DNA of 53,259 nucleotides from Solirubrobacterales bacterium. Lineage in GTDB: Bacteria; Actinomycetota; Thermoleophilia; Solirubrobacterales; 70-9. The DNA is taken from assembly GCA_020438425.1 (NCBI GenBank), contig JAGQUQ010000008.1, forward strand, positions 1 to 53,259, written 5' to 3'. A model generated the notes under the pieces. The model saw only the letters and a list, made by a program, of their open reading frames with translations. It was not told the DNA's origin and did not search any database. A program made the translations under genes and the position numbers. Positions 17,546 to 39,984 of the stretch are shown here, in pieces (the first letter of the stretch is position 1; every line of letters begins with the position of its first letter).

Positions 17546-17771
17546 CTGGAGAGTTCCTCCTGGTGGCAAGATTTGATTTCGAGGGAAAAGCGAATGTCAG
17601 GCTATCCCCGGGCGGCCATGCGGTCGCTTGTACCTCAGGACAAGGTTAGTTCAGGGGCACCCTCCCGTGGGACAGGGTTGGCTTGTTTCCTGCGCAAAGT
17701 GCCACTGCCGGAATCCGGATCTGCAAGTTTGTGTGCAGCAGCTCACGGAATCATCGTCTACAACTCATGTT

Positions 17772-18761
17772 ATGGTTTCCCGGATGCGAGGAGCTCCAAC
17801 GCGCAGGGGCAGGAGGCAGACGATCACCCCGGCAACGCTGATGCTGGTCGTGCTCGGCTTCCTGGCACTCACATTCATCGTTCTCCTGCCGGCCCAGGCG
17901 GGTGCGGCATACCTGGACGGGGCCGGCACCGCTTCACTCGAGAACTCGCCGGTTGATCCGGTCGACCCCTCACCCGCGCCCGGCACGGTGAGCGAAGGGG
18001 CGGGTGACGCCTCATCCTCGGCCACAACCAGCGGCGGCGGCATCGGGGTGCCCGGTCTGCCGGTGATCACCCGGATCCTCTGCCTCCGTCAATGCGTCTC
18101 CGCCAGCCGGGCAACCCGGGGGGCGATCATCGCGGTCCGGGGCAACAACCTCAACCGGGTCACCCGGGTGATCTTCCGGAGCAGGAACGGTCGCATCCGC
18201 GCGAGGTGGAGGACCAGAAGCGTGGGAGCGATAAGAGTCACCGTTCCGAGAGGGACCGTCAAGGGTTACCTCTCGGTGGTCGATACCGGTGGCAACCGCG
18301 CCCGTTCCCCGCGGGAGTTGAGGATCTACCCGATCTCGTCGATTCCGGTCGAGGTATTTCCGGTCCGGGGGCCGTTCAGTTTCGGCAGTTCCGGCTCCCG
18401 TTTCGGGGCTGGCCGTCCCGGTCACATCCATCAGGGCCAGGACCTTTCGGCCTCCTGCGGAACCAGGCTGGTTTCGATCAAGAGGGCGAGGGTTCTCTAC
18501 AACGAGTGGGACGACGGCGGCGGCAACTACGTGGTGCTGCACAACATCGGCACCAACACAAACTTCGTCTTCATGCACATGATCCGCCGGTCGCCGCTCA
18601 AGGTGGGGCAGGTGGTCGGAGCCGGAGCACCGATCGGCCGCGTGGGCACCACCGGAAGTTCGTCCGGCTGCCACCTCCACTTCGAGTACTGGGTCGGACC
18701 GTGGCAAACCGGCGGCAGTCCGATCGACCCGCTTCCATACCTCAAGTCCCTGCTCGGGTAG
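17772..18761 (+). CDS. Secreted M23-family peptidase
   Basis: About 329 residues from the ATG at 17772 (ATG at 17784 is an alternative; neither has a clear ribosome site). It has an N-terminal membrane segment (LMLVVLGFLALTFIVLLPAQAGAA) and a Ser/Pro/Gly linker, then an IPT/TIG-like beta domain (RGAIIAVRGNNLNRVTRVIF, VTVPRGTVKGYLSVVD) at about 110-190. The catalytic LytM domain has the zinc ligands HIHQGQDLSA (His, Asp) and HLHFEYW near the C terminus. Such enzymes cut peptidoglycan crossbridges or act as adaptors; all metal ligands appear present, so hydrolysis is plausible. The SxGC motif (SSSGCHLHF) precedes the HxH. Confidence 0.88.
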   Translation: MVSRMRGAPTRRGRRQTITPATLMLVVLGFLALTFIVLLPAQAGAAYLDGAGTASLENSPVDPVDPSPAPGTVSEGAGDASSSATTSGGGIGVPGLPVITRILCLRQCVSASRATRGAIIAVRGNNLNRVTRVIFRSRNGRIRARWRTRSVGAIRVTVPRGTVKGYLSVVDTGGNRARSPRELRIYPISSIPVEVFPVRGPFSFGSSGSRFGAGRPGHIHQGQDLSASCGTRLVSIKRARVLYNEWDDGGGNYVVLHNIGTNTNFVFMHMIRRSPLKVGQVVGAGAPIGRVGTTGSSSGCHLHFEYWVGPWQTGGSPIDPLPYLKSLLG

Positions 18762-18843
18762 CTGCCCTGGTCCGCATCCTTCCACCCGGGCCGGGGTTGG
18801 TAAGTTGAGCCGGCACGGCAGGGACTGCCGGCACCAGGGAACA

Positions 18844-21423
18844 ATGCTGATCGAACTTCGAAAGACCCCAAGACGGCGATTGCCGTACCCCCTGTTAATG
18901 GTGGGTCTGTTTGCTGTGACCCTCCTGGCGGTCCCGGCCGCGCCGGTCGAGGCGAAGCCGAAGCCGAAAATTGCGGTCAACATCGTTGACCCGGGTCAGA
19001 ATCCGATGCTGAACCGTGGCCTGCTCAAAGTCAAGATCAGGTCCGACCGGAAGGGCAAGATCAGGGTCCGGGCGCTTTCTTCGACCTTTGACGGAAACGG
19101 CGTGATGAAGCCGCTGACCAACGTCGCCTATCCGCGCTTCAAGCGCCCCGGCCAGTGGCGCTCGATCGGACTGAAGCTGACTACGGTCGGGCGGACGCAG
19201 GTCGCGACCTGCCAGGACCGGGACATTCAGGTCAAGGCCGGAAAGGTGCTGAGCAGGCGCAAGGCGATGCTGAGACAGTCCGCCGACTGCAAGGCGCCGG
19301 AACCGGACCTGTCGAGGGCGGAGAACTGCAACTTCATCGCCGCACCGGATCCGGCGATCTGCATGTCGCCGTTTCCGGACAACTACTACACGCTGGCCGA
19401 CGCGACTACGGCAACGGGCCGCCGGATCAACTTCACCGGGGAAGCGATGCCGGAGAATTCCGGCGGGGTCGCGATCGACCCCGAGCCCTATCGCCAGAGC
19501 GACGGTTTCAGCCAGGGGCAGACGATCTCGGTCAGGGTGCCCGGGCTCGACAACCCGGCGGCCCTGGCCCAGACCAATCCGGTCGGGTTGGCCGACCCGG
19601 CCCAGTACCTATCGGCCACCGCACCAGTCATCGTGCTCGATGCCCGAACCCGGGAGCGGCAGCCAATCTGGGTCGAGATCGACTCGAACGCGACAACCTC
19701 GAATGCGACCAGCCTGCTGATCCACCCGATGGTCAACTTCAAGTCAGCTTCCCGGTACATCGTCGTGCTCCGCAACCTGAAGGACTCGGTCGGAAACGTG
19801 CTGGCGGCCCCCGACGGATTCCGTTACTACCGCGACTTCCTGCGTTCGACCGACTCGAGGATCAACGGTCGCAGGTCTTTCTACGAAGACATCTTCAAGC
19901 GTTTGCGGGCAGCGGGAATCAAGCGCTCCACTCTCTACCTGGCCTGGGACTTCACCACCGCCAGTGACGAGAACAACAGCGGCCGGGCACTCTCGATGAG
20001 GAACCAGGCCTTCGCCCAACTTGGGGACGAAGACCTCGATGACCGCGTTGCCCAGGGCGACGCGCCCGGCTTCGAGGTGACTTCAGTCCAGGTCGATCCG
20101 AGCAGCACCGTCGCCCGGCGGGTCGAGGGGACCTTCGAGGTTCCATGTTTTCTCGACCATCCTTCATCGGCCAATGAGTGCGCGACCGGGGCCACCCTGA
20201 ACCTCGATCAGGACGGAGTCCCTCAGCCAAACGGCACCTACGAGGCGAACTTCGAATGCATCATTCCGAACGCGATCGTCAATCCCGGCTCGGTCGATCC
20301 CGAAGATCTGCCGACACCAGACCTGCGTGGCCGCGCGATCGTGTACGGCCACGGACTGATGGGATCGATCGGCGGCGAGATTCACGCCGAGTCGCAGCGC
20401 AAGACCGCGGCGAAGGGATTCACGATCTGTGGCACCGACGAGATCGGCATGTCCACAGGAGACATCGTCACGGTCACCGGCGCCCTGATGAACCTTTCGA
20501 ATTTCCCCAAAGTCGCGGACCGGCTTCAGCAGGGTCTCTTGAACGAGCTCCTGCTTGGCCGGCTGATGATCCTCCCGGACGGTTTCGCCTCGAAGGCGGC
20601 TTTCCGGTTCGATCCCGGTGAGGTCAGCCCGGCCGAAGTCCCGGGCGGAGACGGAAACGCGGTCGTGCCGGATGTAAGCACCCTCGAAGCGGCCCTCAAG
20701 ACCGGTCCGAATGTCCGGGCCTGGTACCGCGGCATCAGCCAGGGCGGAATCATGGGCGGAGCGCTCATGGCATTGGCCCCCGACTTCGACAAGGGGGCGC
20801 TGGGAGTGGCAGCGATGAATTACTCGGTGCTCCTGACCCGCTCGGGCTCCTGGGGCACTTACGGCGCATTCTTCAATCCGGCCTACCCGAATCAGGTCGA
20901 GCGACCGCTTGCCCTGGGCCTGATCCAGATGCTCTGGGACAGGGGAGAGCCAAACGGGTATGCCAACCGCATGACTACGGACCCGCTTCCCGACACGCCA
21001 CCCCATCAGGTTCTGTTCGACACCGCCTTCGGCGATCACCTGGTCACCAACTGGCAGACCAACGTGGAAGCCCGCACGGTCGGGGCAAAGGCGATCAGCC
21101 CGCTGGTCGACGAGGCCCGGTGGCCCGGGGTGGACTGGGACTGGGGCCTCGAACCGGTGACCACTTTCCCGCACTACGGATCGGCAGTGGCCTACTGGGA
21201 CAGCGGGCCGCTCAGACCGGGGCCGGGGCCGGACGGATTCATCGGAACCGACCCCGCTCCGATCACGAATACTGCCCCGCCATCGGGCGAAGATCCGCAT
21301 GAACACCCCCGCGTGACCGACAGTGCAATCGAGATGATCGACGGCTTCCTGCGGACCAACGGAGCGGTCAACAATCCCTGTGCTCCCGGCCCCTGCCTCG
21401 CTGGCGGCTGGACCGGCTCTTGA
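18844..21423 (+). CDS. Large secreted alpha/beta-hydrolase (lipase/esterase-like)
   Basis: 859 residues from the ATG at 18844 (an in-frame TTG at 18805 is less likely). The signal peptide ends APVEAKPKPK. An N-terminal beta-rich domain (about 25-95) is followed by a region like bacterial lipase N-terminal domains (VNFKSASRYIVVLRNLKDS, then YLAWDFTTASDENNSGRALS). The hydrolase part has AIVYGHGLMGS (oxyanion region) and GISQGG, a GxSxG nucleophile elbow, near residue 640; HEHPRVTD near the C terminus may carry the catalytic His. It sits directly upstream of the MCE cluster on the same strand, so a role in releasing lipid substrates is tempting but unproven. Confidence 0.75.
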   Translation: MLIELRKTPRRRLPYPLLMVGLFAVTLLAVPAAPVEAKPKPKIAVNIVDPGQNPMLNRGLLKVKIRSDRKGKIRVRALSSTFDGNGVMKPLTNVAYPRFKRPGQWRSIGLKLTTVGRTQVATCQDRDIQVKAGKVLSRRKAMLRQSADCKAPEPDLSRAENCNFIAAPDPAICMSPFPDNYYTLADATTATGRRINFTGEAMPENSGGVAIDPEPYRQSDGFSQGQTISVRVPGLDNPAALAQTNPVGLADPAQYLSATAPVIVLDARTRERQPIWVEIDSNATTSNATSLLIHPMVNFKSASRYIVVLRNLKDSVGNVLAAPDGFRYYRDFLRSTDSRINGRRSFYEDIFKRLRAAGIKRSTLYLAWDFTTASDENNSGRALSMRNQAFAQLGDEDLDDRVAQGDAPGFEVTSVQVDPSSTVARRVEGTFEVPCFLDHPSSANECATGATLNLDQDGVPQPNGTYEANFECIIPNAIVNPGSVDPEDLPTPDLRGRAIVYGHGLMGSIGGEIHAESQRKTAAKGFTICGTDEIGMSTGDIVTVTGALMNLSNFPKVADRLQQGLLNELLLGRLMILPDGFASKAAFRFDPGEVSPAEVPGGDGNAVVPDVSTLEAALKTGPNVRAWYRGISQGGIMGGALMALAPDFDKGALGVAAMNYSVLLTRSGSWGTYGAFFNPAYPNQVERPLALGLIQMLWDRGEPNGYANRMTTDPLPDTPPHQVLFDTAFGDHLVTNWQTNVEARTVGAKAISPLVDEARWPGVDWDWGLEPVTTFPHYGSAVAYWDSGPLRPGPGPDGFIGTDPAPITNTAPPSGEDPHEHPRVTDSAIEMIDGFLRTNGAVNNPCAPGPCLAGGWTGS

Positions 21424-21508: not shown

Positions 21509-25960
<4,452 letters not shown>

Positions 25961-25964
<4 letters not shown>

Positions 25965-27469
25965 GCCAGGACCACCGCAAGCCCAGCCGCTACAACCAGC
26001 AGTTCTTCCGTCAATGGGGAGGGCCCGGGCCGCTTTTCTTCGGCCTCGTCGCGGTGATCCTCGTACTGGTCGGGCTGTACCTGGCATTCACCAAGTCGAT
26101 TCCGTTCACAAGCCCCGGCTACGAGGTTCAGGCCACCTTCCGCAACGCCGTCAACATCGCGATCAAGTCGCCGGTCCGGATCTCCGGAGTCAACGTCGGC
26201 AAGGTCACCGAGATGGAGCAGAAGGGCGACAACACGGTCGTGACCTTCACCGTCGAAGATGAAGGCAGGCCGATCCGCGAGGACGCATCAGCCCAGATCC
26301 GTCCCCGGCTCTTCCTCGAGGGCAACTGGTTCGTCGACCTCGATCCCGGTACGCCCGATGCCAAGGAGATGCCGGACAACGGCATGATCCCGGTCAGCAA
26401 TACGGCCACCAGCGTTCAGGTCGGTGATCTCCTGAGGACCCTCCAGACGCCGGAACGGGCCAACATCCAGCGGCTTCTCGAGAGCCTCGGCACCGGTCTC
26501 AACTCCGAGCCCACGGCCGAACAGGACCTGACTTTCGAGCCGTTCGTGCAGGGCCTGAGCGGCGGCGAGGCCCTGAACCTTGCCTACCGTGAGGGCGAGG
26601 TTGCCGCTCGTGGTACCGCGATCGTCAGCGCCGCCACTCTGGGCACCGAGACCAACGATCTCGGCAACCTGCTGCGGGGCCTCTCCCGGGTCACCGGAGC
26701 GGTCAACGAGCGCGGCGATGACATCAAGGGATTCGTCACCAACTTCGCAACCTTCACCGGAGCCCTGGCCGCCGAGTCCGAGAACCTCGGCCTGACCATC
26801 CAGCGACTGGGCCCGACCCTTGTGGTCGCCCGTCGTGCTCTGACCAGCCTCAACGCCAGCCTGCCGGCGCTGCGCGGTTTCGCGATCGCGTCGCGGCCCG
26901 GCCTGAACGAGCTTCCGCGGACGATCCGCGTAACCCGGCCCTTCCTCAGGCAGCTCCAGCAGCTGCTCACCGAACCGGAGCTCGCCGGTCTGGCCAAGAT
27001 CATCCAGCGCACGACTCCGGCGGCGGCAAGGTCGGCGGCCGAGACCCTTGAACTGCTGCCGCAGCTGCGCCTGTTCGGTCTCTGTATCGCTGACACGATC
27101 AGCCCGACCGGAGACCAGGTGATCAGCGACGGTGCCTTCAGCAACGGTCAGAAGGCTTCGCGTGAGTTCTTCTACGCAGCGGTCAGCGCCACCGGCAGCA
27201 CCAACGGTCTTGACGGCAACGGCTCCTTCGCGAGGATCCAGGGTGGCGGCGGACCGGTCACGGTCAAGATGCCCGACGACGAAAACGCCGGTGACCCGAC
27301 CTCCGACACCCTTTATGGCCGTCTGCAGTCGGCACCGCTCGGCACCTCGCCGCTGGCACCCGGCACACCGCCTATCGTGAGCGACCAGCCCTGCTACCAG
27401 CAGGATCAACCCGATCTCAACGGGCCGATGGCCGGCCCGGGAGCACCAAGTCCGGTGGCTTACCCGTGA
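25961..27469 (+). CDS. MCE-family protein, fourth of six
   Basis: 502 residues from the GTG at 25961, chosen because it gives the standard 4-nt GTGA overlap; a TTG at 25949 would add four residues. A hydrophobic segment (PLFFGLVAVILVLVGLYLAF) precedes the MCE domain (YEVQATFRNAVNIAIKSPVR, ISGVNVGKVTEMEQ, then FLEGNWFVDLDPG). The long helical portion contains repeating 'LGNLLRGLSRVTGAV'-type heptads and the tail is disordered and Pro-rich (PGAPSPVAYP). Confidence 0.92.
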
Positions 27470-28776
27470 AGCGCGCGATAAAGACACATTTCAAGGATTT
27501 CCTGGCGATCGCCGGCCTGATCGTGATCGCGATTGCCGTACTGCTGTTCATCCTTTCGAACCAGAAGGCAGCGCTGCCGTCGTGGATCCCGGGACTGGGG
27601 CAGGAGTTCTACTCGATCAATGTCGAGATGGAAACCGCCCAGGCAGTTACGCCCGGTCAGGGCCAGGCCGCCGTGATCGCCGGCATCAACGTCGGCAAGG
27701 TCGGTGCCTCGACGCTTGACGACGGCATCGCGAAGGTGCGCCTCGACATCGAGCCGGAATACAAGGAACTGATCCACGAAGACGCGCAGTTCCTGCTCCG
27801 GCCAAAGACCGGCCTGAGCGACATGGTGGTCGAGATCGACCCCGGAACCAAGGGGCCGACCCCGCCCGAGGGGACGACCTTCCCGGTTGCCCAGAGCATG
27901 TCCAACGTCCAGATGGACCAGATCCTCGCCTCGCTCGACCGTGACACGCAGGACTACCTGGTGCTGCTCCTGAACGGTGCCGGCGAGGGCCTTCACAACA
28001 AGGGCCCCGAGCTCTCGCAGGCGCTGCGCCGGTTCGGTCCCTTCGCGACATACACCGCCAGGCTCAACGGCGAGCTGGAGAAGCGGCGCAAGTTCATCGC
28101 CCGTGGCGTCCACTCCTTCAGCGAGGTCGCCTCGGAACTCGGCGACAACGGCGAAATCGTCGCCGATTTCATCTCCGCCTCGAAGGAGAACCTCGGGAAC
28201 TACGCGGCCCAGGAAGCGGCCCTGCGGGAAGCTCTGCGCGAATTCCCCTCGACCCTCGAGGCCGGGCGGATCAACCTGACCAAGTCCGACCAGCTTTCAC
28301 AACTCACCCGACCCACCCTGCTGGGCCTGATTCCCGGCGCCCGCAACCTCAGGGATTCGCTGCGTTCCGTCCAGCGACTCGCCACCGACACCACGCCGCT
28401 GGTGCGGGACAACATCCGGCCCTTCACCAGGCAGGTCCAGCCGGTCTTCAAGGAGCTCGGAAGGACCAGTCGGGCCGGCGAGAAGACGACCCCGCAGCTC
28501 CGGGGCGCCTTCACCCACATCAACACCCTGCTCAACACCCTTGCCTACAACCCCTCCGGTGACTCGGAAGGCTTCCTCTTCTACGCACCCTGGGCCAACC
28601 ACAACTTCAACGCTTCGGTGGCCTTCCAGGACGGCCTCGGACTGGTCAGGCGCAGCGTCAACATGCTTTCCTGCGCGACCGGTAACGCCGCCAACGCCGT
28701 GGTCGATCAGAACGTCCAGCTCGAAACTGCCTACCGTCTGAATCAGCTCCCGCCTCCGGAAGCGGTCTGCCCGTGA
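27466..28776 (+). CDS. MCE-family protein, fifth of six
   Basis: 436 residues from a GTG overlapping the preceding stop. One transmembrane segment (FLAIAGLIVIAIAVLLFIL) is followed by an MCE domain (YSINVEMETAQAVTPGQGQA, VIAGINVGKVGASTLD, then TGLSDMVVEIDPG). The helical region ends near residue 350, and the last 60 residues (FYAPWANHNFNASVAFQDGLG) resemble the C-terminal part of other actinobacterial MCE proteins. Start and stop overlap both neighbours by 4 nt. Confidence 0.92.
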   Translation: MKRAIKTHFKDFLAIAGLIVIAIAVLLFILSNQKAALPSWIPGLGQEFYSINVEMETAQAVTPGQGQAAVIAGINVGKVGASTLDDGIAKVRLDIEPEYKELIHEDAQFLLRPKTGLSDMVVEIDPGTKGPTPPEGTTFPVAQSMSNVQMDQILASLDRDTQDYLVLLLNGAGEGLHNKGPELSQALRRFGPFATYTARLNGELEKRRKFIARGVHSFSEVASELGDNGEIVADFISASKENLGNYAAQEAALREALREFPSTLEAGRINLTKSDQLSQLTRPTLLGLIPGARNLRDSLRSVQRLATDTTPLVRDNIRPFTRQVQPVFKELGRTSRAGEKTTPQLRGAFTHINTLLNTLAYNPSGDSEGFLFYAPWANHNFNASVAFQDGLGLVRRSVNMLSCATGNAANAVVDQNVQLETAYRLNQLPPPEAVCP

Positions 28777-30335
28777 ATAAACAGGCACCCTCAGTCGGGC
28801 AACTCATCGCCATCGCGGGCTTCGCGCTCTCCTGCTTCGGCCTGCTGCTTTTCGTCTGGGTCGCCTTCGGCGGTCCGACCCCGCTGGCCGCCCGCGGCTA
28901 CGAAGTGAAGCTGCCCCTGACTCAGGTCGGCCAGCTGGCCGAGCAGTCGCAGGTCGACATCTCGGGAATTGAGGTTGGAAGGGTCAAGTCGATCGAACTC
29001 GGTGAAGGTGACGAGGAAGGCTCGGCGATAGTCACGCTCAACATCGAGCCCGAGTACGCGCCGGTGCCGAAGGACACTCGCGCGATTCTCCGGGCCAAGA
29101 GCCTGCTCGGCGAGGCATACATCGAACTGACCCCGGGCGACAAGCGGGACGGCCTGCTCGAGGACGGCGACCAGCTCCCGCCGGCACAGGTCGCCAGATC
29201 CGTACAGCTCGACGAGGTATTCAGGACCTTCGACGAGAAGACCCGCCAGGCATTCATGCAGGGAGCGATCGACAACTCGATCGCGATCGGTGGCCGCGGA
29301 GCCACCCTGAACCAGACCCTTGGCGTCCTTCCGGGAACGATCACCTCGCTCACCGACGTGCTCCAGGTGCTCAACGAGCAGGACCAGGACGTGTCGAAGC
29401 TGATCAGGAACACCGGCGTTGTGTTCGATGCGCTCAGCAAGCGGCAGGGCCAGCTCAGCGGCATGATCCGCAACACCGACACCGTCTTCAAGACCCTGGC
29501 CGACCGGGACGAGCAACTCAAGGACTTCTTCCGGGTCTTCCCGACCTTCCTGCGCGAATCCCGGGCCACCCAGGACCGCCTCGGTGATTTCTCCGACTTC
29601 GCCACCCCGGTGGTCCGGAAGCTGGTGCCGGTGGCCGAACAGCTCTCACCGACCTTCAAGGCCTCGGCCCGGCTGGCACCGGTCAGCGAGCGGCTGTACA
29701 CAAACCTGAAGCCGGTAATCCGCAAGGCACCGAGGGCCTTCCCCTCGCTCCGGGCCTTCCTCGACGAGGACGCTCCGACGCTGCTGGCCCGCCTGCCTGA
29801 CTATCTGGCGGAACTCGATCCCTTCCTCGAGACCGCCAGCCTCTACCGCAAGGAGATTCCCTCGCTGATCGCCAACGCGGCGGCAGCGACCCAGACCGAC
29901 GTCCGGGCCGGCCGAAACTTCATCCGAGCCGGTGTTAGGCTCGGCCCCGAGACCTACACGGCCTTCCCCGGAGGCGGCGCGTCATCGGGCCGGGTCAATC
30001 CGTACACGGCACCCGGCGGTAACGACGACTTCGCCTCGGGCGGCATGCAGGTGTTCTCGTCGGCCAACTGCGCAACCTCGGTGAACGCCACGATCGCTCC
30101 CTGGAGCGCGCTCACTCCGGTCGAGCAGGCACAGTTCGGCGCCAACCTCAGGTACGGCTTCAGCGCCGCCCAGCAGGAGGACTACTACACCAAGGCGATC
30201 ACCTACCTGATGTGGAACGCGAACCAGACCAACAACGTGCCCGCACCCGCCTGCACGCAGCAGGCCCCGTTCGAGCCGATCGGCGACGATTCGCAGCCCG
30301 CCACGCAGTACCTGCACGTCTTCCGCGAACAGTAG
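28773..30335 (+). CDS. MCE-family protein, sixth of six
   Basis: 520 residues from a GTG start overlapping the fifth gene. It has a transmembrane segment (LIAIAGFALSCFGLLLFVWV) and an MCE domain (YEVKLPLTQVGQLAEQSQVD, ISGIEVGRVKSIEL, then LLGEAYIELTPG). A long helical needle region (TLNQTLGVLPGTITSLTDVLQ, IRNTDTVFKTLADRDEQL) continues to about 360. The Cys-containing C-terminal domain (FSSANCATSVNATIAPWSAL, then PACTQQAPFEPIGDD) is probably disulphide-bonded outside the cell. Last gene of the overlap-coupled cluster; the 174 bp after it separate it from the secreted paralogue array. Confidence 0.92.
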   Translation: MNKQAPSVGQLIAIAGFALSCFGLLLFVWVAFGGPTPLAARGYEVKLPLTQVGQLAEQSQVDISGIEVGRVKSIELGEGDEEGSAIVTLNIEPEYAPVPKDTRAILRAKSLLGEAYIELTPGDKRDGLLEDGDQLPPAQVARSVQLDEVFRTFDEKTRQAFMQGAIDNSIAIGGRGATLNQTLGVLPGTITSLTDVLQVLNEQDQDVSKLIRNTGVVFDALSKRQGQLSGMIRNTDTVFKTLADRDEQLKDFFRVFPTFLRESRATQDRLGDFSDFATPVVRKLVPVAEQLSPTFKASARLAPVSERLYTNLKPVIRKAPRAFPSLRAFLDEDAPTLLARLPDYLAELDPFLETASLYRKEIPSLIANAAAATQTDVRAGRNFIRAGVRLGPETYTAFPGGGASSGRVNPYTAPGGNDDFASGGMQVFSSANCATSVNATIAPWSALTPVEQAQFGANLRYGFSAAQQEDYYTKAITYLMWNANQTNNVPAPACTQQAPFEPIGDDSQPATQYLHVFREQ

Positions 30336-30508: not shown

Positions 30509-31603
30509 ATGAAGAAGCTTGTAGCCATTTTTGTGGCGCTGATGGCGTCATTCGCGATGGTGGCGTCGGCCCAGGCGGCAGACGAAACCGTCGTCGGCAC
30601 GACCGACATCACGTCGCTGGGCGGCCCGCTTTACAAGGAAAAAGCGGTTCCGGTCAACATGGAGATCCATGCCGAAGTCACCACTCCGGTGTCCTCGCCG
30701 AAGGTGAACCCGCTCAAGAACACGAAGCTCACCTTCCCGAAGGGCGTTTCGTTCAATCCGAACAACAAGAAGACTCCGCCCTGCACTGACGACAAGCTGA
30801 GCACGACCTCGAACCTCGCTGATCCCGAGGGCGTTGTCGCGGCCTGCCCGAAGTCGATTGTCGGTACCGGTGTTTCGACGATCATCATCGCGAAGATCAA
30901 TAACAACCCGAACACGGTGATCTCCGACCCGATCCTGATCCTGTTCAACGCTGGCACTGACAGCCAGGGTCGAGCGATGCTCAAGGTCTACGGCTACTCG
31001 AAGTACACCAACGTCGGCATCCTGATGCACGGCACCCTGGTCGGCCAGGTCCTCGACCTCGCCGTTCCGGTTCTGTCGAACGACTCGGCCGTCAAGCTCT
31101 ACACCTTCAACATGCCGGGTCCGGTTCTTGACCGTCCCGAACTGGGCATCAACGTGAAGGGTCTTGACTCGAACTACGTTCAGGCCACCTGCGCCGACGG
31201 CGTCTGGAAGACCAACTCCGAGTTCATCCTCGGTGAGCGGACCTACCCGGGTGGCGTAGACACCACTCCGGAGACGACCGTTGTCTCGCCCGAGACCGAG
31301 CAGAACTGCGTCGGCCAGGCCGGCAAGGCGAAGCTGGCTCTGAAGGCGACCGGTCCGAAGTCGGTCAAGTCCGGCAAGAAGGGTTCCTTCAAGGTCACCG
31401 TCACCAACAGCGGCACCGCAAGTGCCAAGAACGTCAAGGTGACTGCCACCGGTGGTGGCAAGGGCTCCGCGGGCACTCTGAAGCCCGGTGCCAAGAAGAC
31501 CGTCACGGTCAAGACCAAGGTCACCGGCAGGAAGGGCAGCAAGAAGACGCTGACCTTCTCCGCTGGCGGCAGCAAGGCCAAGATCAAGGTCACCGTCAAG
31601 TAG
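30509..31603 (+). CDS. Secreted four-Cys paralogue family, member 1
   Basis: 364 residues from the ATG at 30509, preceded by a purine-rich AGGAGAGAAGAG. Signal peptide ends ASAQAADETV. N-terminal domain (about 25-265) has family motifs SSPKVNPLKN, KTPPCTDDKLSTTSNLADPEG, CPKSIVGTGVSTIIIAKINN, VYGYSKYTNVGILMHGTL, VPVLSNDSAV and LGERTYPGG, with four Cys (PPC, AAC, ATC, QNC) that are conserved in all seven tandem members. The C-terminal 95 residues are a Lys-rich CARDB/DUF11-like beta domain (KSGKKGSFKVTVTNSGTASA). I recognise no known function for the N-terminal domain. Its position after the MCE cluster suggests an envelope role. Confidence 0.85.
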   Translation: MKKLVAIFVALMASFAMVASAQAADETVVGTTDITSLGGPLYKEKAVPVNMEIHAEVTTPVSSPKVNPLKNTKLTFPKGVSFNPNNKKTPPCTDDKLSTTSNLADPEGVVAACPKSIVGTGVSTIIIAKINNNPNTVISDPILILFNAGTDSQGRAMLKVYGYSKYTNVGILMHGTLVGQVLDLAVPVLSNDSAVKLYTFNMPGPVLDRPELGINVKGLDSNYVQATCADGVWKTNSEFILGERTYPGGVDTTPETTVVSPETEQNCVGQAGKAKLALKATGPKSVKSGKKGSFKVTVTNSGTASAKNVKVTATGGGKGSAGTLKPGAKKTVTVKTKVTGRKGSKKTLTFSAGGSKAKIKVTVK

Positions 31604-31630
31604 GTCTCTCCTGCTGACAGAAGTTCGTGA

Positions 31631-31658
31631 AAAGGGCGGCCCTCCGGGGCCGCCCTTT
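31631..31658 (+). terminator. Intrinsic terminator after paralogue 1
   Basis: A 12-bp GC stem (arms starting AAAGGGCGGCCC) with a 4-nt loop. The same AAAGGGCGGCC arm recurs after members 3 and 6. Confidence 0.75.
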
Positions 31659-31687
31659 CACTTTTCCCGTCCCGGGCAGACACAGAA

Positions 31688-32824
31688 ATGAAGAAAGCGC
31701 TCATCAGCCTCGCTTTGACCCTGGCCACCCTGGTCGCAGTTCCCGCGGCCGATGCCGCCAACGAGTCGATCGGACTCTCCCTGGCCGCCGAGCCCGGCGC
31801 CGGTTCGCTTTACCGGGAGGTCCACCGTCCGGTCAACGCCAGTCTCACGGTAACCGTCTCGAATCCGCCTTCGGAGACGAAGATCACCCCGCTCAAGGTT
31901 GCCAATGTCACCTTCCCCGGGGACATGGACTTCTTCCCGGACGAGAAGAAGACCCCGGCCTGCCCCGATTCGAAGCTGAACGAGCAGAGCAACCTGGCGG
32001 CCGGAATTCTGGGCGTGGTGGCCCTCTGTCCCCGCTCGGTGGTGGGAGTCGGCACCGCCGTGGTCCAGATCAACCAGAACAAGGGTCCGTCCCCGATTCC
32101 CACGGTGACCGATCCGAAGCTGGTGGTCTTCAACGCCGGCCGCAACGGCCAGGGCCGGCCCCGGGTCCTGATCTACGGGTACTCGAAGCTGGTCGGTGTG
32201 GGCCTGCTGATGCGCGGGACCCTGGCCACCAACGGTGAACTCAGAATCGAGATCGGGGTGCTGCCATACGATTCCTCGATCAGCCAGTTCACGATGGGAA
32301 TCCCCGGGGAACCGATCGAGGTCGACGAGGGAACCGGCGAGACGGCGACGATCAAGGGGCTGGATCCGGGCTACCTGAGGGCAAAATGCTCGACTGGCAC
32401 CTGGAGGGCAACCGGTTCTTTCGTGCTGGGGACCCGGGAGCACCCGAGCGGAAAGCCGATCAGCGAGGACTTCTTTCTCAGCTCGAATCCGTTCGAACTC
32501 CCCTGTGAAGGACAAGCCGGAAAGCCAAAGCTGAAGATCAAGAGGATCTCCGGCCCGAAGAAGGTGAAGCCCGGCAAGCGGCTTGCCTACCGGCTGGCCA
32601 TCACCAATGCTGGCACTGCTACGGCCCGGTCGATCCGGCTCGCCGCGAAGGGTGCCGCCAGCGGTCGTGCGCAAACCGGTTCGCTGGCTCCGGGCAAGTC
32701 GCGGCAGGTCGTGATCCGGGCAAAGGCTTCCGGCCGGAAGCAGACCGGCCAGGTGAAGTTTGCCTTGAGCGGGGCGGGATTCCCGGCCGTCAACGGGACC
32801 AGGCGTCTCGTCGTAAGCAGATAA
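31688..32824 (+). CDS. Secreted four-Cys paralogue family, member 2 (divergent)
   Basis: 378 residues with signal peptide ending VPAADAANES. It keeps the family scaffold (SETKITPLKVANVTFPGDM, KTPACPDSKLNEQSNL, CPRSVVGVGTAVVQI, IYGYSKLVGVGLLMRGTL) and the four Cys (PAC, ALC, AKC, LPC) but has lost the LSNDSA motif (LPYDSSIS instead) and ERTYPGG (TREHPSG). The C-terminal beta domain is the CARDB/DUF11-like type with mixed Lys/Arg. The most divergent member, yet it lies between the two most similar ones (1 and 3). Confidence 0.82.
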   Translation: MKKALISLALTLATLVAVPAADAANESIGLSLAAEPGAGSLYREVHRPVNASLTVTVSNPPSETKITPLKVANVTFPGDMDFFPDEKKTPACPDSKLNEQSNLAAGILGVVALCPRSVVGVGTAVVQINQNKGPSPIPTVTDPKLVVFNAGRNGQGRPRVLIYGYSKLVGVGLLMRGTLATNGELRIEIGVLPYDSSISQFTMGIPGEPIEVDEGTGETATIKGLDPGYLRAKCSTGTWRATGSFVLGTREHPSGKPISEDFFLSSNPFELPCEGQAGKPKLKIKRISGPKKVKPGKRLAYRLAITNAGTATARSIRLAAKGAASGRAQTGSLAPGKSRQVVIRAKASGRKQTGQVKFALSGAGFPAVNGTRRLVVSR

Positions 32825-32983
32825 TTCGCGGGAATTTCCCCCCGGTGCAACTATCCTGCGATATGTTGCAGCCAGTTCGCAACTTGCGAGCGGGTTATGT
32901 GTTACATGGACAATGGTCTGCGGACGCTCAGGGAGCCGGACACGGCTGAAGTGCCGCAACGAACACACAGGAGAGAGGGCAAC

Positions 32984-34093
32984 ATGTTGAAGAAGTTTGC
33001 ATCAGTAATGGTGGCGCTGGTTGCGTCACTCGCGATGGCGGCGTCGGCCCAGGCGGCAGACGAGACCGTTGTCGGCACGACCGAGGTCAAGCCGATCAGC
33101 GGTCCGCTTTATCAGTCGAAGCCGGTTCCGGTGAACCTGACGATCAGGGCCGAGGTCACGACCCCGGTTTCGTCACCGAAGGTGAACCCGCTCAAGAACA
33201 CCACGACCACCTTCCCGAAGGGCGTCACGTTCAACCCGGACAACAAGAAGACGCCGCCCTGCACTGACGCGATGCTGAGCAATTCGTCGAACCTCGCTGA
33301 TCCCGAGGGCGTAGTCGCGGCCTGTCCGAAGTCGATCGTGGGTACCGGTGTCTCGGCGATCATCATCGCGAAGATCAATAACAACCCGAACACGGTGATC
33401 TCCGATCCGATCCTGATCCTCTTCAACGCTGGCACCGACAGCCAGGGTCGAGCCAAGATCAAGATCTACGGCTACTCGAAGTACACCAACGTCGGCATCC
33501 TGATGCACGGCACCGTCATCAACAGTGTCCTTGACGTTGCGGTCCCCGTCCTGTCGAATGACTCGGCGACCAGGTTCTACGAGTTCCAGATGCCGGGCGC
33601 GCCGCTGGTGCGGGACGATCTCGGCATCAACGTGAAGGGTCTCGACTCCGGCTACGTCGAAGCTGTCTGCCCGGCGAGCGGCGAGCTCTTCACCAACACC
33701 AAGTTCGTGCTTGGCGAGCGGACCTACCCGGGTGGTGTCGACACCACACCGTCGGTCACGGTCAATTCGCCTGAAACCGTCCAGAACTGCAACGGCCAGG
33801 TTGGCAAGGCGAAGCTGGCGGTGAAGGTGACTGGTCCGAAGTCGGTCAAGTCCGGCAAGAAGGGCGTTTTCAAGGTCACGGTCACCAATAACGGCACCGG
33901 TATCGCCAAGGGCGTGAAGGTGACTGCTACCGGTGGCGGCAAGGGCTCCGCCGGGAACCTGAACCCGGGTGCCAAGAAGACCGTCAAGGTCAAGACCAAG
34001 GTCACTGGTCGCAAGGGCAGCAAGAAGACGCTGACCTTCACTGCCAAGGGCGGGGCTACCGCCAAGGGCAAGATCAAGGTCAAGGTCAAGTAG
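32984..34093 (+). CDS. Secreted four-Cys paralogue family, member 3
   Basis: 369 residues from the ATG at 32984, preceded by ACACAGGAGAGAGGG as in member 1; the in-frame extension to 32897 is non-coding leader. Signal peptide ends ASAQAADETV, identical to member 1. Family motifs SSPKVNPLKN, KTPPCTDAMLSNSSNL, CPKSIVGTGVSAIIIAKINN, IYGYSKYTNVGILMHGTV and LGERTYPGG are present, with all four Cys. The Lys-rich C-terminal domain (KSGKKGVFKVTVTNNGTG) follows. Near-identical DNA to member 1 over the middle of the gene indicates recent duplication or conversion. Confidence 0.85.
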   Translation: MLKKFASVMVALVASLAMAASAQAADETVVGTTEVKPISGPLYQSKPVPVNLTIRAEVTTPVSSPKVNPLKNTTTTFPKGVTFNPDNKKTPPCTDAMLSNSSNLADPEGVVAACPKSIVGTGVSAIIIAKINNNPNTVISDPILILFNAGTDSQGRAKIKIYGYSKYTNVGILMHGTVINSVLDVAVPVLSNDSATRFYEFQMPGAPLVRDDLGINVKGLDSGYVEAVCPASGELFTNTKFVLGERTYPGGVDTTPSVTVNSPETVQNCNGQVGKAKLAVKVTGPKSVKSGKKGVFKVTVTNNGTGIAKGVKVTATGGGKGSAGNLNPGAKKTVKVKTKVTGRKGSKKTLTFTAKGGATAKGKIKVKVK

Positions 34094-34119
34094 GACTCTC
34101 CTGCTGGCAGAAGTACCGG

Positions 34120-34147
34120 AAAGGGCGGCCCCGCGGGGCCGCCCTTT
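34120..34147 (+). terminator. Intrinsic terminator after paralogue 3
   Basis: A perfect 28-nt palindrome (14-bp arms beginning AAAGGGCGGCCCCG) followed by a run of T. Confidence 0.85.
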
Positions 34148-34302
34148 TTCTGTCCGGTGCCGCCGGAGCGTTGCACTGGACCCAGTCCCAAAGCCGAAAA
34201 CAGGGGCGTTTACAAAGAAAGTGTTAGGAAATCCGGCGTCGGGTAATTAGGTAGCTGATCGAAGGATGTGCCCTCGGGGGCACTTCCGTTAGAGGAGGCT
34301 CT

Positions 34303-35139
34303 GTGTTTAACCTGAAGCGAGTAGCCGGACTGGTATGTGTGGCCGTAGTAACGGCGCTGTTCGGCATGGCGAACGTTGGAACCGCATCGGCGGCCAACGA
34401 GTCGATCACTCTGAAGACCACCGTCAAGCCCACCAAGGGCAAGGTCTACAAGACCCGCAGCGTTCCTGCCCGGATGCAGCTTTCCGTCAAGGTCAACGTG
34501 CCTGCCGGAACCGCCAAGATGAACCCGCTGAAGCGGGCAGTCGTCCGGTTCCCGAAGCAGATGACGTTCAACCCGAACAACCGGCGCACCCCGGTCTGCA
34601 CCGACAAGAAGCTCGGCAAGACGTCCAACCTGGCCGCAGGTACTGCTGGCGTCGCCAGCCTCTGCCCGAAGTCGATCATCGGCACGGGCACCGCGCAGAT
34701 CTACCTCGCCAAGGTCGTCTCGGACACCACCCTGGTGAAGGATCCGCAGCTGCTCGTCTTCAATGCCGGCAAGGACAAGAAGGGCAACGCGAAGATCAAG
34801 ATCTACGCCTACTCGAAGAACACCAACGTCGGCATCCTCATGTACGGCACGCTTTCCCGCAAGGCGGTCATCAACGTGGCGATCCCGGTGCTGAGCAATG
34901 ACTCGGCGACGACCAGCTTCGTGCTGGGTATCCCGGGCGCTCCGATCAAGGACGGTGGCAAGACGTTCAAGGGTCGAGACGGCGGTTACGCCCGGATCAA
35001 GTGCACCAACGGCAAGTGGGTTTCCGGCGGTACCTTCACCCTCGGCGAACGCACCTACCCGGCTGGTACTGCGACCGGACCGTCGAGCACGGTCAAGGCC
35101 AGGAACACGTCGGTCAAGTGCCGCGCCTCGCGAGGCTGA
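34303..35139 (+). CDS. Secreted four-Cys paralogue family, member 4 (single domain)
   Basis: 278 residues from a GTG with AGAGGAGG about 8 nt upstream. Signal peptide ends GTASAANES. It has the family N-terminal domain (TAKMNPLKRAVVRFPKQM, RTPVCTDKKLGKTSNL, CPKSIIGTGTAQIYLAKV, IYAYSKNTNVGILMYGTL, VPVLSNDSAT, LGERTYPAG) and all four Cys, the last in SVKCRASRG at its very end. It stops exactly where the others continue into the basic beta domain, and a terminator follows 37 nt later, so it looks like a natural one-domain form and not a frameshift remnant. Confidence 0.83.
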   Translation: MFNLKRVAGLVCVAVVTALFGMANVGTASAANESITLKTTVKPTKGKVYKTRSVPARMQLSVKVNVPAGTAKMNPLKRAVVRFPKQMTFNPNNRRTPVCTDKKLGKTSNLAAGTAGVASLCPKSIIGTGTAQIYLAKVVSDTTLVKDPQLLVFNAGKDKKGNAKIKIYAYSKNTNVGILMYGTLSRKAVINVAIPVLSNDSATTSFVLGIPGAPIKDGGKTFKGRDGGYARIKCTNGKWVSGGTFTLGERTYPAGTATGPSSTVKARNTSVKCRASRG

Positions 35140-35176
35140 CCAAGAGCACCTGACAGACAGGAACACCGCATCTCCA

Positions 35177-35207
35177 ACGGGCCGGGGCTGGCAAAGCTCC
35201 GGCCCGT
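35177..35207 (+). terminator. Intrinsic terminator after paralogue 4
   Basis: A 13-bp stem (ACGGGCCGGGGCT pairing with AGCTCCGGCCCGT, one G-T wobble) with a 5-nt loop, then TTGTCGTT. Confidence 0.75.
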
Positions 35208-35311
35208 TGTCGTTCCGGGACCCGGCCAGGTGTGAGAAAGCCTCCCACGGGGTAGGTTGTGCTCCAGCAACCGTCATGGGAGACGGCCGCTTGAAAAGGA
35301 GAGGGATTCAC

Positions 35312-36457
35312 TTGCTGTCGAAACGAGTCGCTGCGTTGACCTGCCTCGTCGTTCTGTACGGTCTGGCGGTTTCCGGCACGGCCTCGGCCGCAGGCGAAAC
35401 CATGACCCTCGAGACTTCCGTGAAACCGCTCGGAGGCAAGCTCTACAAGGAGATCAGCGTGCCGGCCAGCATGTCGCTCTCGGTTCGGGTCCACACGCCC
35501 GACGCCTCGCCCAAGGTGAACCCGCTCAAGCGGGCGGTGATGAAATTTCCGACCGATCTGAGCTACAACCCCGACAACAAACGCACTCCGGTCTGCTCCG
35601 ACTCGGCACTCAGCGAACAGTCGAATCTTTCCGGCGGCGTTGCAGCGACCGTCGACCTTTGTCCCCGTTCGGTGATCGGAACCGGCACCGCCGAGATCTA
35701 CCTGGCCAAGATCCACAAACCGGCCACGCTGGTCGACGATCCCGAACTGGTCATCTTCAACGCCGGGCGAGACGGGCAGGGCAACGCGAAGATGAAGATC
35801 TACGCCTATTCCAAGACCACCAACGTCGGGATCCTGATGTTCGGCTCTCTGACCCCGAAGGGGGTTCAGGACGTCTTGATTCCGGTTCTGGCCGAAGACT
35901 CGGCGACCGCCAGTTTCGTCCTCAGCATTCCCGGTCCCGGACTCACCGTCGCCGATCCCGAAGCGCCGGGCGGCACGCGAACGATCCGCGGACTCGACCC
36001 CTCCTACGCGAAGTCCCGTTGTTCGACCGGCGAGTGGACGACCGGGGGTACCTTCACCCTCGGCGAGCGTGCCTACCCGTCCGGAGTCGACACCGGCGCC
36101 GAAACGGTGGTCGAGGCAACTCCATACACGACTGAATGCCTCGGTCTTGCCGGCCGGGCCCGACTGGAAGGCGCCCGGGTCAAGGGACCGAAGACGGTCC
36201 GCCGCGGCACCCGCAGGGTGTTCCGGATCACGGTTCGAAACGGGGGAACGGCCACCGCAAAGTCGCTCAGGCTGAAAGTATCGGGCAGCGGCCGGGGTCA
36301 GGCAAACTCCGCCAGCATCCCTCCGGGTGCGAAGCGCTCGATTCCGGTCAGGGTCAAGGTCACCGGCAGGAAGGGGAGTGCGGCGCGCTTCACTTTCCGG
36401 ATCAGCGGCCGCGGCACAGCAACCCGCGTAGTGGCGCGGGCCAGAGTCGCGCGCTAA
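35312..36457 (+). CDS. Secreted four-Cys paralogue family, member 5
   Basis: 381 residues from a TTG at 35312, chosen because AAAAGGAGAGG lies just upstream and the resulting N terminus (MLSKRVAALTCLVVLYGLA) parallels member 4. An ATG at 35276 is the alternative. Signal peptide ends GTASAAGET. Family motifs are SPKVNPLKRAVMKFPTDL, RTPVCSDSALSEQSNL, CPRSVIGTGTAEIYLAKI, IYAYSKTTNVGILMFGSL and LGERAYPSG, with four Cys. Closest to member 4. The C-terminal domain is Arg-rich (RRGTRRVFRITVRNGGTATA), unlike the Lys-rich version in members 1, 3 and 6. Confidence 0.83.
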   Translation: MLSKRVAALTCLVVLYGLAVSGTASAAGETMTLETSVKPLGGKLYKEISVPASMSLSVRVHTPDASPKVNPLKRAVMKFPTDLSYNPDNKRTPVCSDSALSEQSNLSGGVAATVDLCPRSVIGTGTAEIYLAKIHKPATLVDDPELVIFNAGRDGQGNAKMKIYAYSKTTNVGILMFGSLTPKGVQDVLIPVLAEDSATASFVLSIPGPGLTVADPEAPGGTRTIRGLDPSYAKSRCSTGEWTTGGTFTLGERAYPSGVDTGAETVVEATPYTTECLGLAGRARLEGARVKGPKTVRRGTRRVFRITVRNGGTATAKSLRLKVSGSGRGQANSASIPPGAKRSIPVRVKVTGRKGSAARFTFRISGRGTATRVVARARVAR

Positions 36458-36575
36458 ACGTTTCGTAAACGGCGAAACTAAGCCGATTCCGGTGGGTACT
36501 TATAGGTGACGGGCCGCTCAGTAAGTGCGGCCGGTCATGTTCTCTCCAAACTCCCACATGATTGAGGCAATTCGA

Positions 36576-37694
36576 ATGAACTCCCTGAAGAAATACATCG
36601 CCCTCGCAGTCGCGATGCTCGTCCCCTTCGCGATGGTTTCATCCGCGAACGCCGCGGACGAAACCGTGAACGCGACGACGAACCTGACTCCCCGAAACGG
36701 CCCCTTCTACAAGGAAAAGGCCGTTGCTTCCAACCTGAAGATCGACGTCTCAGCGAACACTCCGGTTTCGTCGCCGAAGGTCAACCCCCTGAAGAACGTC
36801 AAGGTCACCTTCCCGGCCGGCATGACTTTCAACCCGAATGACTCCAAGACTCCGGTCTGCCCGGACAGCAAGCTGAGCACGACCTCGAACCTGGCTGATC
36901 CCGAGGGCGTCGTCAACTCCTGCAAGACCTCGGTTGTCGGTACCGGCACCGCGACGATCATCATCGCCAAGATCAACAACAACCCGAACACCGTGGTCTC
37001 CGACCCGATTCTGGTCGCTTTCAACGGTGGCAAGAACTCCCAGGGTCAGCCCAAGCTGAAGATCTACGGCTACTCGAAGTACACCAACGTCGGAATCCTC
37101 ATGGACGGCACCCTCAAGGGCAGCGTTCTGGACATCGCAGTCCCGGTGCTGAGCAATGACTCCGCCGTCCGGTTCTTCGACCTCGAGTTCCCCGGACCGG
37201 TCCTGAACCGTCCCGACATCGGTGTCAACACCCAGGGTCGTGACCCGAACTACGTCATGGCCAAGTGCGCCAGCAGCCCGCTGAAGACCAACGCCGTCTT
37301 CGAGCTCGGCGAGCGGACCTACCCGGGCGGAACTCCGACCACGCCGACCACCACGGTCAGCTCGCCGGAGACCACCCAGGACTGCACCGGCCAGGCCGGC
37401 AAGGCCAAGCTCGGTGTCACGAAGCTGGCGGGCCCAAGCGCCGTCAAGAACGGCAAGAAGGGCAGCTACAAGATCACCATCAAGAACAACGGCACCGCGA
37501 CCGCCAAGAACGTGGTCGTCACCAACAACCGCGGCGGCAAGGGCAAGGGTGGCAACATCGCCCCCGGCAAGTCCAAGACCATAGCCGTGAAGGCGAAGAT
37601 CAGCGGCAAGAAGGGCAAGAAGGTCGCCGTGAAGTTCACCGCCAAGGCCGGCAACGTCAAGGTCGTCAAGACCAAGCAGGTCAAGGTCAAGTAA
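36576..37694 (+). CDS. Secreted four-Cys paralogue family, member 6
   Basis: 372 residues from the ATG at 36576; the in-frame ATG at 36525 lacks signal-peptide logic. Signal peptide ends SSANAADETV. It has SSPKVNPLKNVKVTFPAGM, KTPVCPDSKLSTTSNL, CKTSVVGTGTATIIIAKINN, IYGYSKYTNVGILMDGTL, VPVLSNDSAV and LGERTYPGG, with all four Cys. The C-terminal domain is Lys-rich (KNGKKGSYKITIKNNGTATA). Closest to member 7 in the N-terminal domain. Confidence 0.85.
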   Translation: MNSLKKYIALAVAMLVPFAMVSSANAADETVNATTNLTPRNGPFYKEKAVASNLKIDVSANTPVSSPKVNPLKNVKVTFPAGMTFNPNDSKTPVCPDSKLSTTSNLADPEGVVNSCKTSVVGTGTATIIIAKINNNPNTVVSDPILVAFNGGKNSQGQPKLKIYGYSKYTNVGILMDGTLKGSVLDIAVPVLSNDSAVRFFDLEFPGPVLNRPDIGVNTQGRDPNYVMAKCASSPLKTNAVFELGERTYPGGTPTTPTTTVSSPETTQDCTGQAGKAKLGVTKLAGPSAVKNGKKGSYKITIKNNGTATAKNVVVTNNRGGKGKGGNIAPGKSKTIAVKAKISGKKGKKVAVKFTAKAGNVKVVKTKQVKVK

Positions 37695-37714
37695 GACTGT
37701 CTCAATCAACAGCG

Positions 37715-37740
37715 AAAGGGCGGCCTCCGGGCCGCCCTTT
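37715..37740 (+). terminator. Intrinsic terminator after paralogue 6
   Basis: An 11-bp perfect stem (AAAGGGCGGCC) around a TCCG loop, followed by T residues. Confidence 0.85.
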
Positions 37741-37865
37741 TTCGTGCTTGGATGTGGGTGATCCTGGAAAGTTAAGGTAGAGCGAAACCCGGACCCCGGT
37801 ACCGGGTTCTGGAAGAAAGAGACTTCAACCCGGTTCAAAAGAACCGAAGAGGATGAGGTAGGAAA

Positions 37866-38984
37866 ATGCGCACCCCTTCGAAGTACCTGCTCCTGGCAAT
37901 CGCAGTTGCCGCGTCGCTTCTGACGGCTCCCGCGGCGAACGCGGCTGACGAGACGGTCACCGCGACGACCAATCTCCAGCCCAGGAGTGGTCCATTCTTC
38001 CGCGAGAGCAGTGTCGCCTCAAACCTGACGGTCCGTGCCGAAGTGAACACGCCCGTTTCTTCCCCGAAGGTGAACCCGATGAAGAACGTGAAGGTGACCT
38101 TCCCGGCCGGGATGTCTTTCAGGCCCAACAATGCCCGGACCCCGGTCTGCACGGACGCCAAGCTGAGCACCACCTCGAACCTGGCCGATCCCGAGGGCGT
38201 GCTGAACTCCTGCCGGAACTCCGTGGTCGGCACCGGCACGGCGACGATCATCATCGCCAAGATCAACAACAACCCGGGGACCGTGGTTTCCGACCCGATC
38301 CTGATCGTCTTCAACAACGGCCGGACCGGCCAAGGGCAGCCCAGATTGAAGATCTACGGCTACTCGAAGTACACCAACGTCGGAATCCTGATGAGCGGCA
38401 CCCTCAGAGGAAGGGTGCTGGACATCGCGGTCCCGGTGCTGAGCAACGACTCGGCCGTACGGGTCTTCGAGCTGAACCTGCCCGGGGGTGCGCTCAACCG
38501 GCCGGACATCGGCGTTGTCACCCGCGGTCGTGACGCGAACTACGTCCAGGCAAGGTGTGCCGCAAGCCCGCTGAGAACCAACGCAGTGTTCGAGCTCGGC
38601 GAGCGGACCTACCCGGGCGGGACCCCGACTACTCCGACTACCACGGTCAATTCACCGGAGACCACTCAGAACTGCAATGGCCAGGCCGGTCGCGCGCGAC
38701 TGGCACTGCCCCGGGTTAATGCTCCCGGCTCGGTCAGAAGCGGCCGGGTCGCCAGGTTCCGGGTTACGGTTCGAAACAACGGAACCGCGACTGCACGCAA
38801 CCTGGTGGTCAGAACGAACCGTGGTGGCAAGAGGCGGGCGGGAAGCCTCGCGCCGGGAGCTTCGCGAACCGTGGTGGTCCAGACCAGGCTGCGCGGGCAG
38901 CGGAACCGTCGTGTCGCGGTCCGGATCATCGCCCGGGCTGGCAACATCCAGGCAGCTGCGACCCGCAGGGTTCGGATTCGCTGA
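37866..38984 (+). CDS. Secreted four-Cys paralogue family, member 7
   Basis: 372 residues, ATG preceded by GAGGTAGGAAA. Signal peptide ends APAANAADETV. It has SSPKVNPMKNVKVTFPAGM, RTPVCTDAKLSTTSNL, CRNSVVGTGTATIIIAKINN, IYGYSKYTNVGILMSGTL, VPVLSNDSAV and LGERTYPGG with four Cys. Its C-terminal domain aligns with that of member 6 but Lys is replaced almost throughout by Arg (RSGRVARFRVTVRNNGTATA, ending TRRVRIR). The leader contains a hairpin (AACCCGG at 37786-37792 with CCGGGTT at 37802-37808). Confidence 0.84.
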   Translation: MRTPSKYLLLAIAVAASLLTAPAANAADETVTATTNLQPRSGPFFRESSVASNLTVRAEVNTPVSSPKVNPMKNVKVTFPAGMSFRPNNARTPVCTDAKLSTTSNLADPEGVLNSCRNSVVGTGTATIIIAKINNNPGTVVSDPILIVFNNGRTGQGQPRLKIYGYSKYTNVGILMSGTLRGRVLDIAVPVLSNDSAVRVFELNLPGGALNRPDIGVVTRGRDANYVQARCAASPLRTNAVFELGERTYPGGTPTTPTTTVNSPETTQNCNGQAGRARLALPRVNAPGSVRSGRVARFRVTVRNNGTATARNLVVRTNRGGKRRAGSLAPGASRTVVVQTRLRGQRNRRVAVRIIARAGNIQAAATRRVRIR

Positions 38985-39008: not shown

Positions 39009-39032
39009 AGGGGCGGCTTCCGGGCCGCCCTT
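39009..39032 (+). terminator. Intrinsic terminator after paralogue 7
   Basis: Stem GGGCGGC with GCCGCCC and TTCTT tail, again the GGGCGGC arm used across the array. It also faces the end of convergent xthA. Confidence 0.7.
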
Positions 39033-39900: not shown

Positions 39901-39984
39901 TGCGGCTGAGAGGAGTCGAACCTCCACGTTCTTGCGAACACAGGCACCTGAAGCCTGCGCGTCTACCAGTTCCGCCACAGCCGC
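39901..39984 (-). tRNA. tRNA-Leu (anticodon CAG)
   Basis: On the minus strand the 84 nt fold as a class II tRNA: acceptor GCGGCTG pairs with CAGCCGC plus discriminator A, D-arm GGCGGAACTGGTAGACGC, anticodon stem CAGGC/GCCTG around TTCAGGT (anticodon CAG), a long variable arm (TGTTCGCAAGAACG) and a T-arm with GGTTCGACT. CCA is not encoded. It is 8 nt upstream of xthA. Confidence 0.95.

Follow-up and report, generated by a model that had tools for sequence, protein, structure and literature searches.

What might seven neighbouring genes for exported proteins contribute where they directly follow a set of mce lipid-transport genes? The question is raised by positions 30509-38984 of the window, the whole stretch of 53,259 nucleotides from a Solirubrobacterales bacterium that was analysed here. 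We found that the linkage of this gene family to mce is inherited and involves one mce lineage specifically. The reading that we prefer, held tentatively and at somewhat less than even confidence, is that the seven proteins are exported, wall-associated extracytoplasmic accessory proteins of a single Mce lipid-transport system. The linkage was observed directly; the role in transport is what we infer.

Seven exported four-cysteine proteins follow six mce genes

The seven adjacent genes encode homologous exported proteins of 278 to 381 amino acids (aa). Each N-terminal domain (N-domain) comprises about 250 aa and holds all four cysteines.

21509..30335, plus strand: six consecutive mce genes (starts 21509, 22861, 24492, 25949, 27466 and 28773), MlaD domain (PF02470) in each
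30509..31603, plus strand: gene 1; signal peptide, four-cysteine N-domain (30578-31324), basic CARDB-type C-terminal domain (31325-31600; CARDB 25.2 bits, cut-off 22.7)
31688..32824, plus strand: gene 2; architecture as gene 1, N-domain 31757-32521; most diverged paralogue; CARDB 24.9 bits
32984..34093, plus strand: gene 3; architecture as gene 1, N-domain 33056-33805; nearest paralogue gene 1 (78% identity)
34303..35139, plus strand: gene 4; GTG start, N-domain only (34393-35136; net charge +33), without CARDB domain
35312..36457, plus strand: gene 5; TTG start, N-domain 35390-36154, then basic C-terminal domain
36576..37694, plus strand: gene 6; N-domain 36654-37400, then basic C-terminal domain
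37866..38984, plus strand: gene 7; N-domain 37944-38690, then basic C-terminal domain; nearest paralogue gene 6

In a search of its own genome, gene 1 matched the six other array genes far beyond chance (E 4e-177 to 8e-69), and no further full-length copy was found. A first-pass annotation of this DNA had described a tandem seven-gene family directly 3′ of mce; its coordinates were correct, the own-genome search established homology of all seven members, and the six MlaD/MCE-domain genes do lie upstream. The motifs it listed (PVCTD, CPxSxxGTG, YGYSKxTNVGILMxGTL, VPVLSNDSA and LGERTYPGG) recurred in the alignment with some variation. The four cysteines it called invariant are indeed present in all seven proteins (C92, C113, C228 and C267 in gene 1 numbering) and across 13 N-domains with identities down to 24%.

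Reading of the sequences by eye confirmed that each gene has its own leader, as had been proposed, of the Sec type and ending in A-x-A. By the same reading, the proteins contain no hydrophobic segment besides the leader, and no sortase motif, lipobox or C-terminal transmembrane segment was seen. The C-terminal 95 aa or so of six proteins form an immunoglobulin (Ig) domain of the CARDB (PF07705)/DUF11 (PF01345) type, which is missing from gene 4 and had escaped the first-pass annotation. Genes 1 and 2 passed the CARDB cut-off, while genes 3, 5, 6 and 7 gave sub-cut-off matches at the same position. This domain is very basic (net charge +24 to +27, isoelectric point (pI) 11 to 12). High pI values are general in the family, exceeding 9 in 93% of 123 open reading frames (near-copies included), and the median charge per 100 aa was +6.6 compared to -0.5 in 60 other exported proteins from the same loci. 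It would be natural to infer attachment to anionic wall polymers.

The family is linked to one inherited mce lineage

Full-length family members are restricted to the genus, where 18 of 18 sampled genomes were matched, some by fragments only; most genomes in this analysis are fragmented assemblies. Scanning genome contigs with a single protein yielded one relative only, and profile searches were needed to recover the wider family. Of 201 genomes sampled from the order Solirubrobacterales, 71 carry the N-domain family, representing 24 of 51 genera; it was not found outside the order among 299 genomes of the class and 396 of the phylum.

In genus mates whose contig covers the site, the array directly follows the sixth mce gene. 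A family gene occupies this 3′ position in the genera g2, g3, g4, g6, g7, g8 and g9 of the same bacterial family as well. Family genes flank mce on both sides in g11, and in g10 a divergent copy lies 5′ of the first mce gene; up to three more single-domain family genes stand there in tandem, about 3-7 kb away (L093-L100). Linkage extends to a second bacterial family (g16 and g27). In total, 12 genera from two bacterial families have a family gene next to an mce cluster, at a distance of 0-541 bp in the fetched loci, so that the linkage proposed from the window alone is conserved in relatives. The g12 contig was too short to judge linkage.

In one genome with 15 mce sets and in another with three, a family gene adjoins only one set each. 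In a tree of MceF, the sixth Mce protein, 25 linked sets of family f1 clustered together (100/99), as did six linked sets of family f2 (94/92), and both groups stood near yrbE-less sets without a family gene; nearly all linked sets thereby fell into a single lineage. The label 'linked' required 3 changes on this tree compared to 13.6 in shuffles. Two of the 3 changes came from L094 and L097, linked rows outside the linked group; in both, the end of the locus truncates the sixth mce gene, so that a different Mce subunit was probably compared. The one-set-only adjacency and the MceF tree therefore show an inherited linkage that is specific to a single mce lineage.

No yrbE gene was found beside the linked mce lineage in the loci read. 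In the window's own genome, which is about 83% complete, the six genes at 21509..30335 are the only MCE-domain genes found, and the one yrbE pair found is located away from mce on another contig (G000:C99:11012-12405, L165). Because of this arrangement, one Mce system with the permease supplied in trans is likely; with six MCE genes only, the array proteins probably have a single Mce system to serve. The yrbE pair is apparently followed by an ATP-binding cassette (ABC) ATPase gene. The 4.4 Mb genome G005 (L150-L164) carries about 15 six-gene mce sets and 91 MCE-domain matches; some of its sets adjoin yrbE and others do not, and the yrbE-less ones look closer to the set in the window.

The paralogues mostly occupy old, conserved positions

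A tree of 50 N-domains resolved five lineages, represented by genes 1/3, 2, 4, 5 and 6/7, whose order is the same in sister species. The pairs 1/3 and 6/7 arose by recent local duplication, in line with the proposed tandem expansion, and the ratio of nonsynonymous to synonymous substitutions (dN/dS) was 0.37 in the pair 1/3 and 0.30 in the pair 6/7. Across the genus, the array comprises 1 to 7 copies. In L011 (5161-6074; L050 is the same), a frameshift or an assembly error has divided the gene 4 orthologue into two overlapping frames.

Hairpins were compared with shuffled sequences (folding energies in kcal/mol):

31634..31655, plus strand: GC-rich hairpin with T-rich tail after gene 1, -36.1 (shuffles -22.7 +/- 3.3)
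34120..34147, plus strand: terminator-like hairpin after gene 3, -44.5 (shuffles -31.0 +/- 3.3)
35175..35209, plus strand: long hairpin after gene 4, -36.7 (shuffles -21.5 +/- 3.3)
37715..37740, plus strand: terminator-like hairpin after gene 6, -30.1 (shuffles -22.7 +/- 3.2)
39009..39032, plus strand: terminator-like hairpin after gene 7, -32.4 (shuffles -23.7 +/- 3.5)

T-rich tails follow the hairpins of genes 1, 3, 6 and 7. The separate terminators claimed for the genes were thus recovered as strong GC hairpins after genes 1, 3, 4, 6 and 7, but no comparable hairpin follows genes 2 and 5. A generic terminator scan performed near chance (14 found, 9.8 expected). Since stable hairpins follow five of the genes, several transcription units in the array are plausible, and differential expression of the copies would be compatible with such separate hairpins.

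The first-pass annotation had interpreted the array as interchangeable, differentially expressed surface proteins; taken as antigens, they would be switched or swapped to vary the cell surface. Tandem copies with separate leaders, hairpins after five genes and the two recent duplications agree with such a system. In contrast, the order of five orthologous lineages is conserved across sister species, and dN/dS values of 0.37 and 0.30 were obtained for the recent pairs. Inverted promoters or phase-variable tracts were not noticed, although no search was aimed at them. For the most part, the paralogues occupy old orthologous positions and have diverged under purifying selection, not as units in free exchange, and the term 'interchangeable' is therefore unsupported; we regard antigenic variation as very improbable.

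The N-domain is predicted to be all-beta and is related to units of modular surface proteins

Profile searches with all seven proteins gave no match for the N-domain in Pfam or NCBIfam and only chance matches among PDB sequences. The first-pass description of the family as a new one consequently holds for the N-domain, for which no match to a characterised family was obtained in these three libraries, but not for the recognisable CARDB/DUF11-type domain. A description of the N-domain family was found neither in these libraries nor in the open literature searched. The MlaD domain (PF02470) was not found in the array proteins with Pfam or NCBIfam, and hhalign of the N-domain against MCE gave 0.1%.

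AlphaFold2, provided with an alignment of 11 sequences from the window and L011, produced a full-length model with a mean predicted local distance difference test score (pLDDT) of 87 and a model of the N-domain alone with a mean pLDDT of 85 and a predicted template modelling score of 0.85. Both models are all-beta except for a single short helix, which lies between the first and the second cysteine. Foldseek with the full model was rejected as fold evidence for the N-domain, as the CARDB domain dominates the matches; the N-domain alone gave no match with E < 0.001. Its best VIA-align match was 2okm (Z 7.4, 138 aligned residues, 4.2 Å), which is inside the noise range of the tool, and therefore no fold family is claimed. 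The structure prediction suggested by the first-pass annotation thus returned a confident all-beta model that could not be assigned to a fold family.

Several observations weigh against a dedicated role in Mce transport. Profile-profile comparison, unlike the first-pass annotation, detected homology between the N-domain and units of large modular surface proteins from the same order (hhalign 90.7%; 94.9% and P 4.2e-8 with a deeper alignment), whereas controls with reversed units and CARDB reached 0.7% and 0.2%, respectively. Modular units and the N-domain share the layout C..CPxxSxxG..C..C, in more detail C..CP-x-(A)S-x-I-G..C..C. One such modular protein (L144 6501-9416, 971 aa, without Pfam match) adjoins a family gene next to mce. 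The nearest structural matches of the N-domain point only to generic Ig-like surface domains of adhesins and pilins. Furthermore, no mce gene occurs in the fetched stretches of g5, g17, g21, g23, g26, g31, g33, g46 and g48, g10 carries further family copies away from mce, and family genes are absent beside most of the other mce sets in the 15-set genome. Finally, lipid binding and contact with Mce proteins are proposed rather than observed properties.

It is accordingly a serious possibility that the proteins are general wall-decorating or adhesive surface proteins, and that the mce link reflects shared envelope regulation or inheritance rather than transport. The homology to modular units with its negative controls, the adhesin- and pilin-like neighbours (Z up to 7.4, within noise), the CARDB-type tail and several unlinked copies in other genera all fit such a role. 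However, more than generic envelope clustering would be needed to place family genes beside one orthologous mce lineage in 12 genera, on either flank, and at a single set where many exist.

A putative role at the outer end of the Mce needle

Two further genes of the cluster lie 5′ of the mce genes:

17628..18761, plus strand: M23 peptidase gene (PF01551, E 8.6e-19), 5′ of the hydrolase-like gene
18805..21423, plus strand: hydrolase-like gene for a large exported protein of 872 aa (GHG and G-I-S-Q-G-G motifs by eye), directly 5′ of the mce genes

The 872-aa protein had no PDB or Pfam match above cut-off, and an orthologue gave weak sub-cut-off matches to VolA/Pla-1 (E 0.027) and Lipase_bact_N (E 0.021). 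A lipase or esterase of the alpha/beta-hydrolase type is possible and is put forward as a lead only. The gene is kept at the same place in close genus mates and is absent in L048.

Several points favour accessory proteins of the Mce system: the adjacency to mce in 12 genera, its limitation to one set where there are more, the grouping in the MceF tree, the probably single Mce system of the window's own genome, the basic charge, the upstream M23 peptidase and hydrolase-like genes, and the precedent of Mas proteins described below. In the proposed mechanism, the N-domain would fold after Sec export into a disulphide-stabilised all-beta, Ig-like sandwich, and the strong positive charge would hold the protein in the anionic wall of a cell with one membrane. 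There it may act where the Mce needle ends on the outside, by capturing a hydrophobic substrate or passing it on, or by anchoring the needle. The permease YrbE would come from another locus, as would its ATPase, and duplication would have given several heads with different specificity. Disulphides, wall anchoring, needle contact and substrate handling are all postulated steps.

A more specific version is possible, if rather doubtful. The family might represent the missing outer component of an Mce transporter in actinobacteria with one membrane, a secreted, wall-held and disulphide-stabilised receptor array that feeds hydrophobic substrates into a wall-crossing needle, with paralogues tuned to different substrates and substrates possibly released by the hydrolase-like neighbour.

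Extracytoplasmic factors that assemble or fold the Mce needle through the wall, without contact to substrates, would likewise account for the mce linkage, the export leaders and the M23 peptidase in the same cluster. The range of 1 to 7 copies and the divergence of the paralogues are better compatible with a ligand-diverse role, and no chaperone-like match was obtained for the array proteins in Pfam or NCBIfam. A pure assembly function thus appears unlikely.

Other genes in the window

Two tRNA genes, tRNA-Leu(cag) (39901-39984, minus strand) and tRNA-Glu(ctc) (40089-40163, plus strand), lie just 3′ of the array and may mark a cluster boundary. A cobalamin riboswitch (44094-44275, plus strand; Rfam 101.6 bits) precedes two DUF4430 proteins and an ABC-type cluster (44326-50559), which probably serves B12 uptake. 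A similar order follows mce in L057, L092 and L103. At 3137-10564, a heme-uptake-like cluster encodes a periplasmic binding protein (PF01497), two HtaA proteins (PF04213) and one PKD protein; its permease and ATPase were assigned by look.

Comparison with known systems

In the literature on mce in Solirubrobacterales or Thermoleophilia, only one paper was useful; it reports MlaDE homologues in several copies in monoderm Solirubrobacterales and states their function as unknown (PMC10665443). For mycobacterial Mce1, the route of substrates to the portal is open, either direct or via unknown factors (PMC9882608). Being secreted and linked to a single inherited mce lineage, the array family offers a concrete candidate for the outer partner where cells lack an outer membrane, and its proteins could serve as a handle for purification of the complex.

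Mce-associated proteins as such are already known; new here are mce-associated extracytoplasmic proteins with a domain unmatched in the libraries searched. Genes for the Mas ('conserved mce-associated') proteins of Actinomycetales mostly lie downstream of mce operons and are often present in several copies, some of them unlinked; the proteins have an extracytoplasmic domain, for which accessory ligand binding was proposed (PMC1810536; Casali & Riley 2007). The Mas domain of about 160 aa is predicted to form four helices followed by four strands, and the proteins are usually membrane-anchored, a minority having cleavable leaders (PMC1810536). The array family resembles Mas in its place beside mce, its multiple and partly unlinked copies and its predicted location outside the membrane. 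It differs in the N-domain, which is about 250 aa long, all-beta in the AlphaFold2 models and four-cysteine, in the lack of any sequence match, and perhaps in the leader, which by eye reads as cleavable. By this comparison, the family is analogous to Mas in position, yet not a Mas member.

The likeness to CARDB/DUF11 covers only the tail, the N-domain being unrelated by profile, and modular surface proteins carry several units per large protein, whereas the array family has a single unit with the same cysteine layout. LucA and LucB, accessory factors of mycobacterial Mce transporters, are small transmembrane proteins at the inner membrane (PMC9882608). Unlike these, the array proteins are exported, and the proposed likeness lies in acting as accessory partner of an Mce transporter. 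Should the receptor-array version hold, these proteins would be Mce partners of a class of their own, with no relation to Mas, LucA or LucB.

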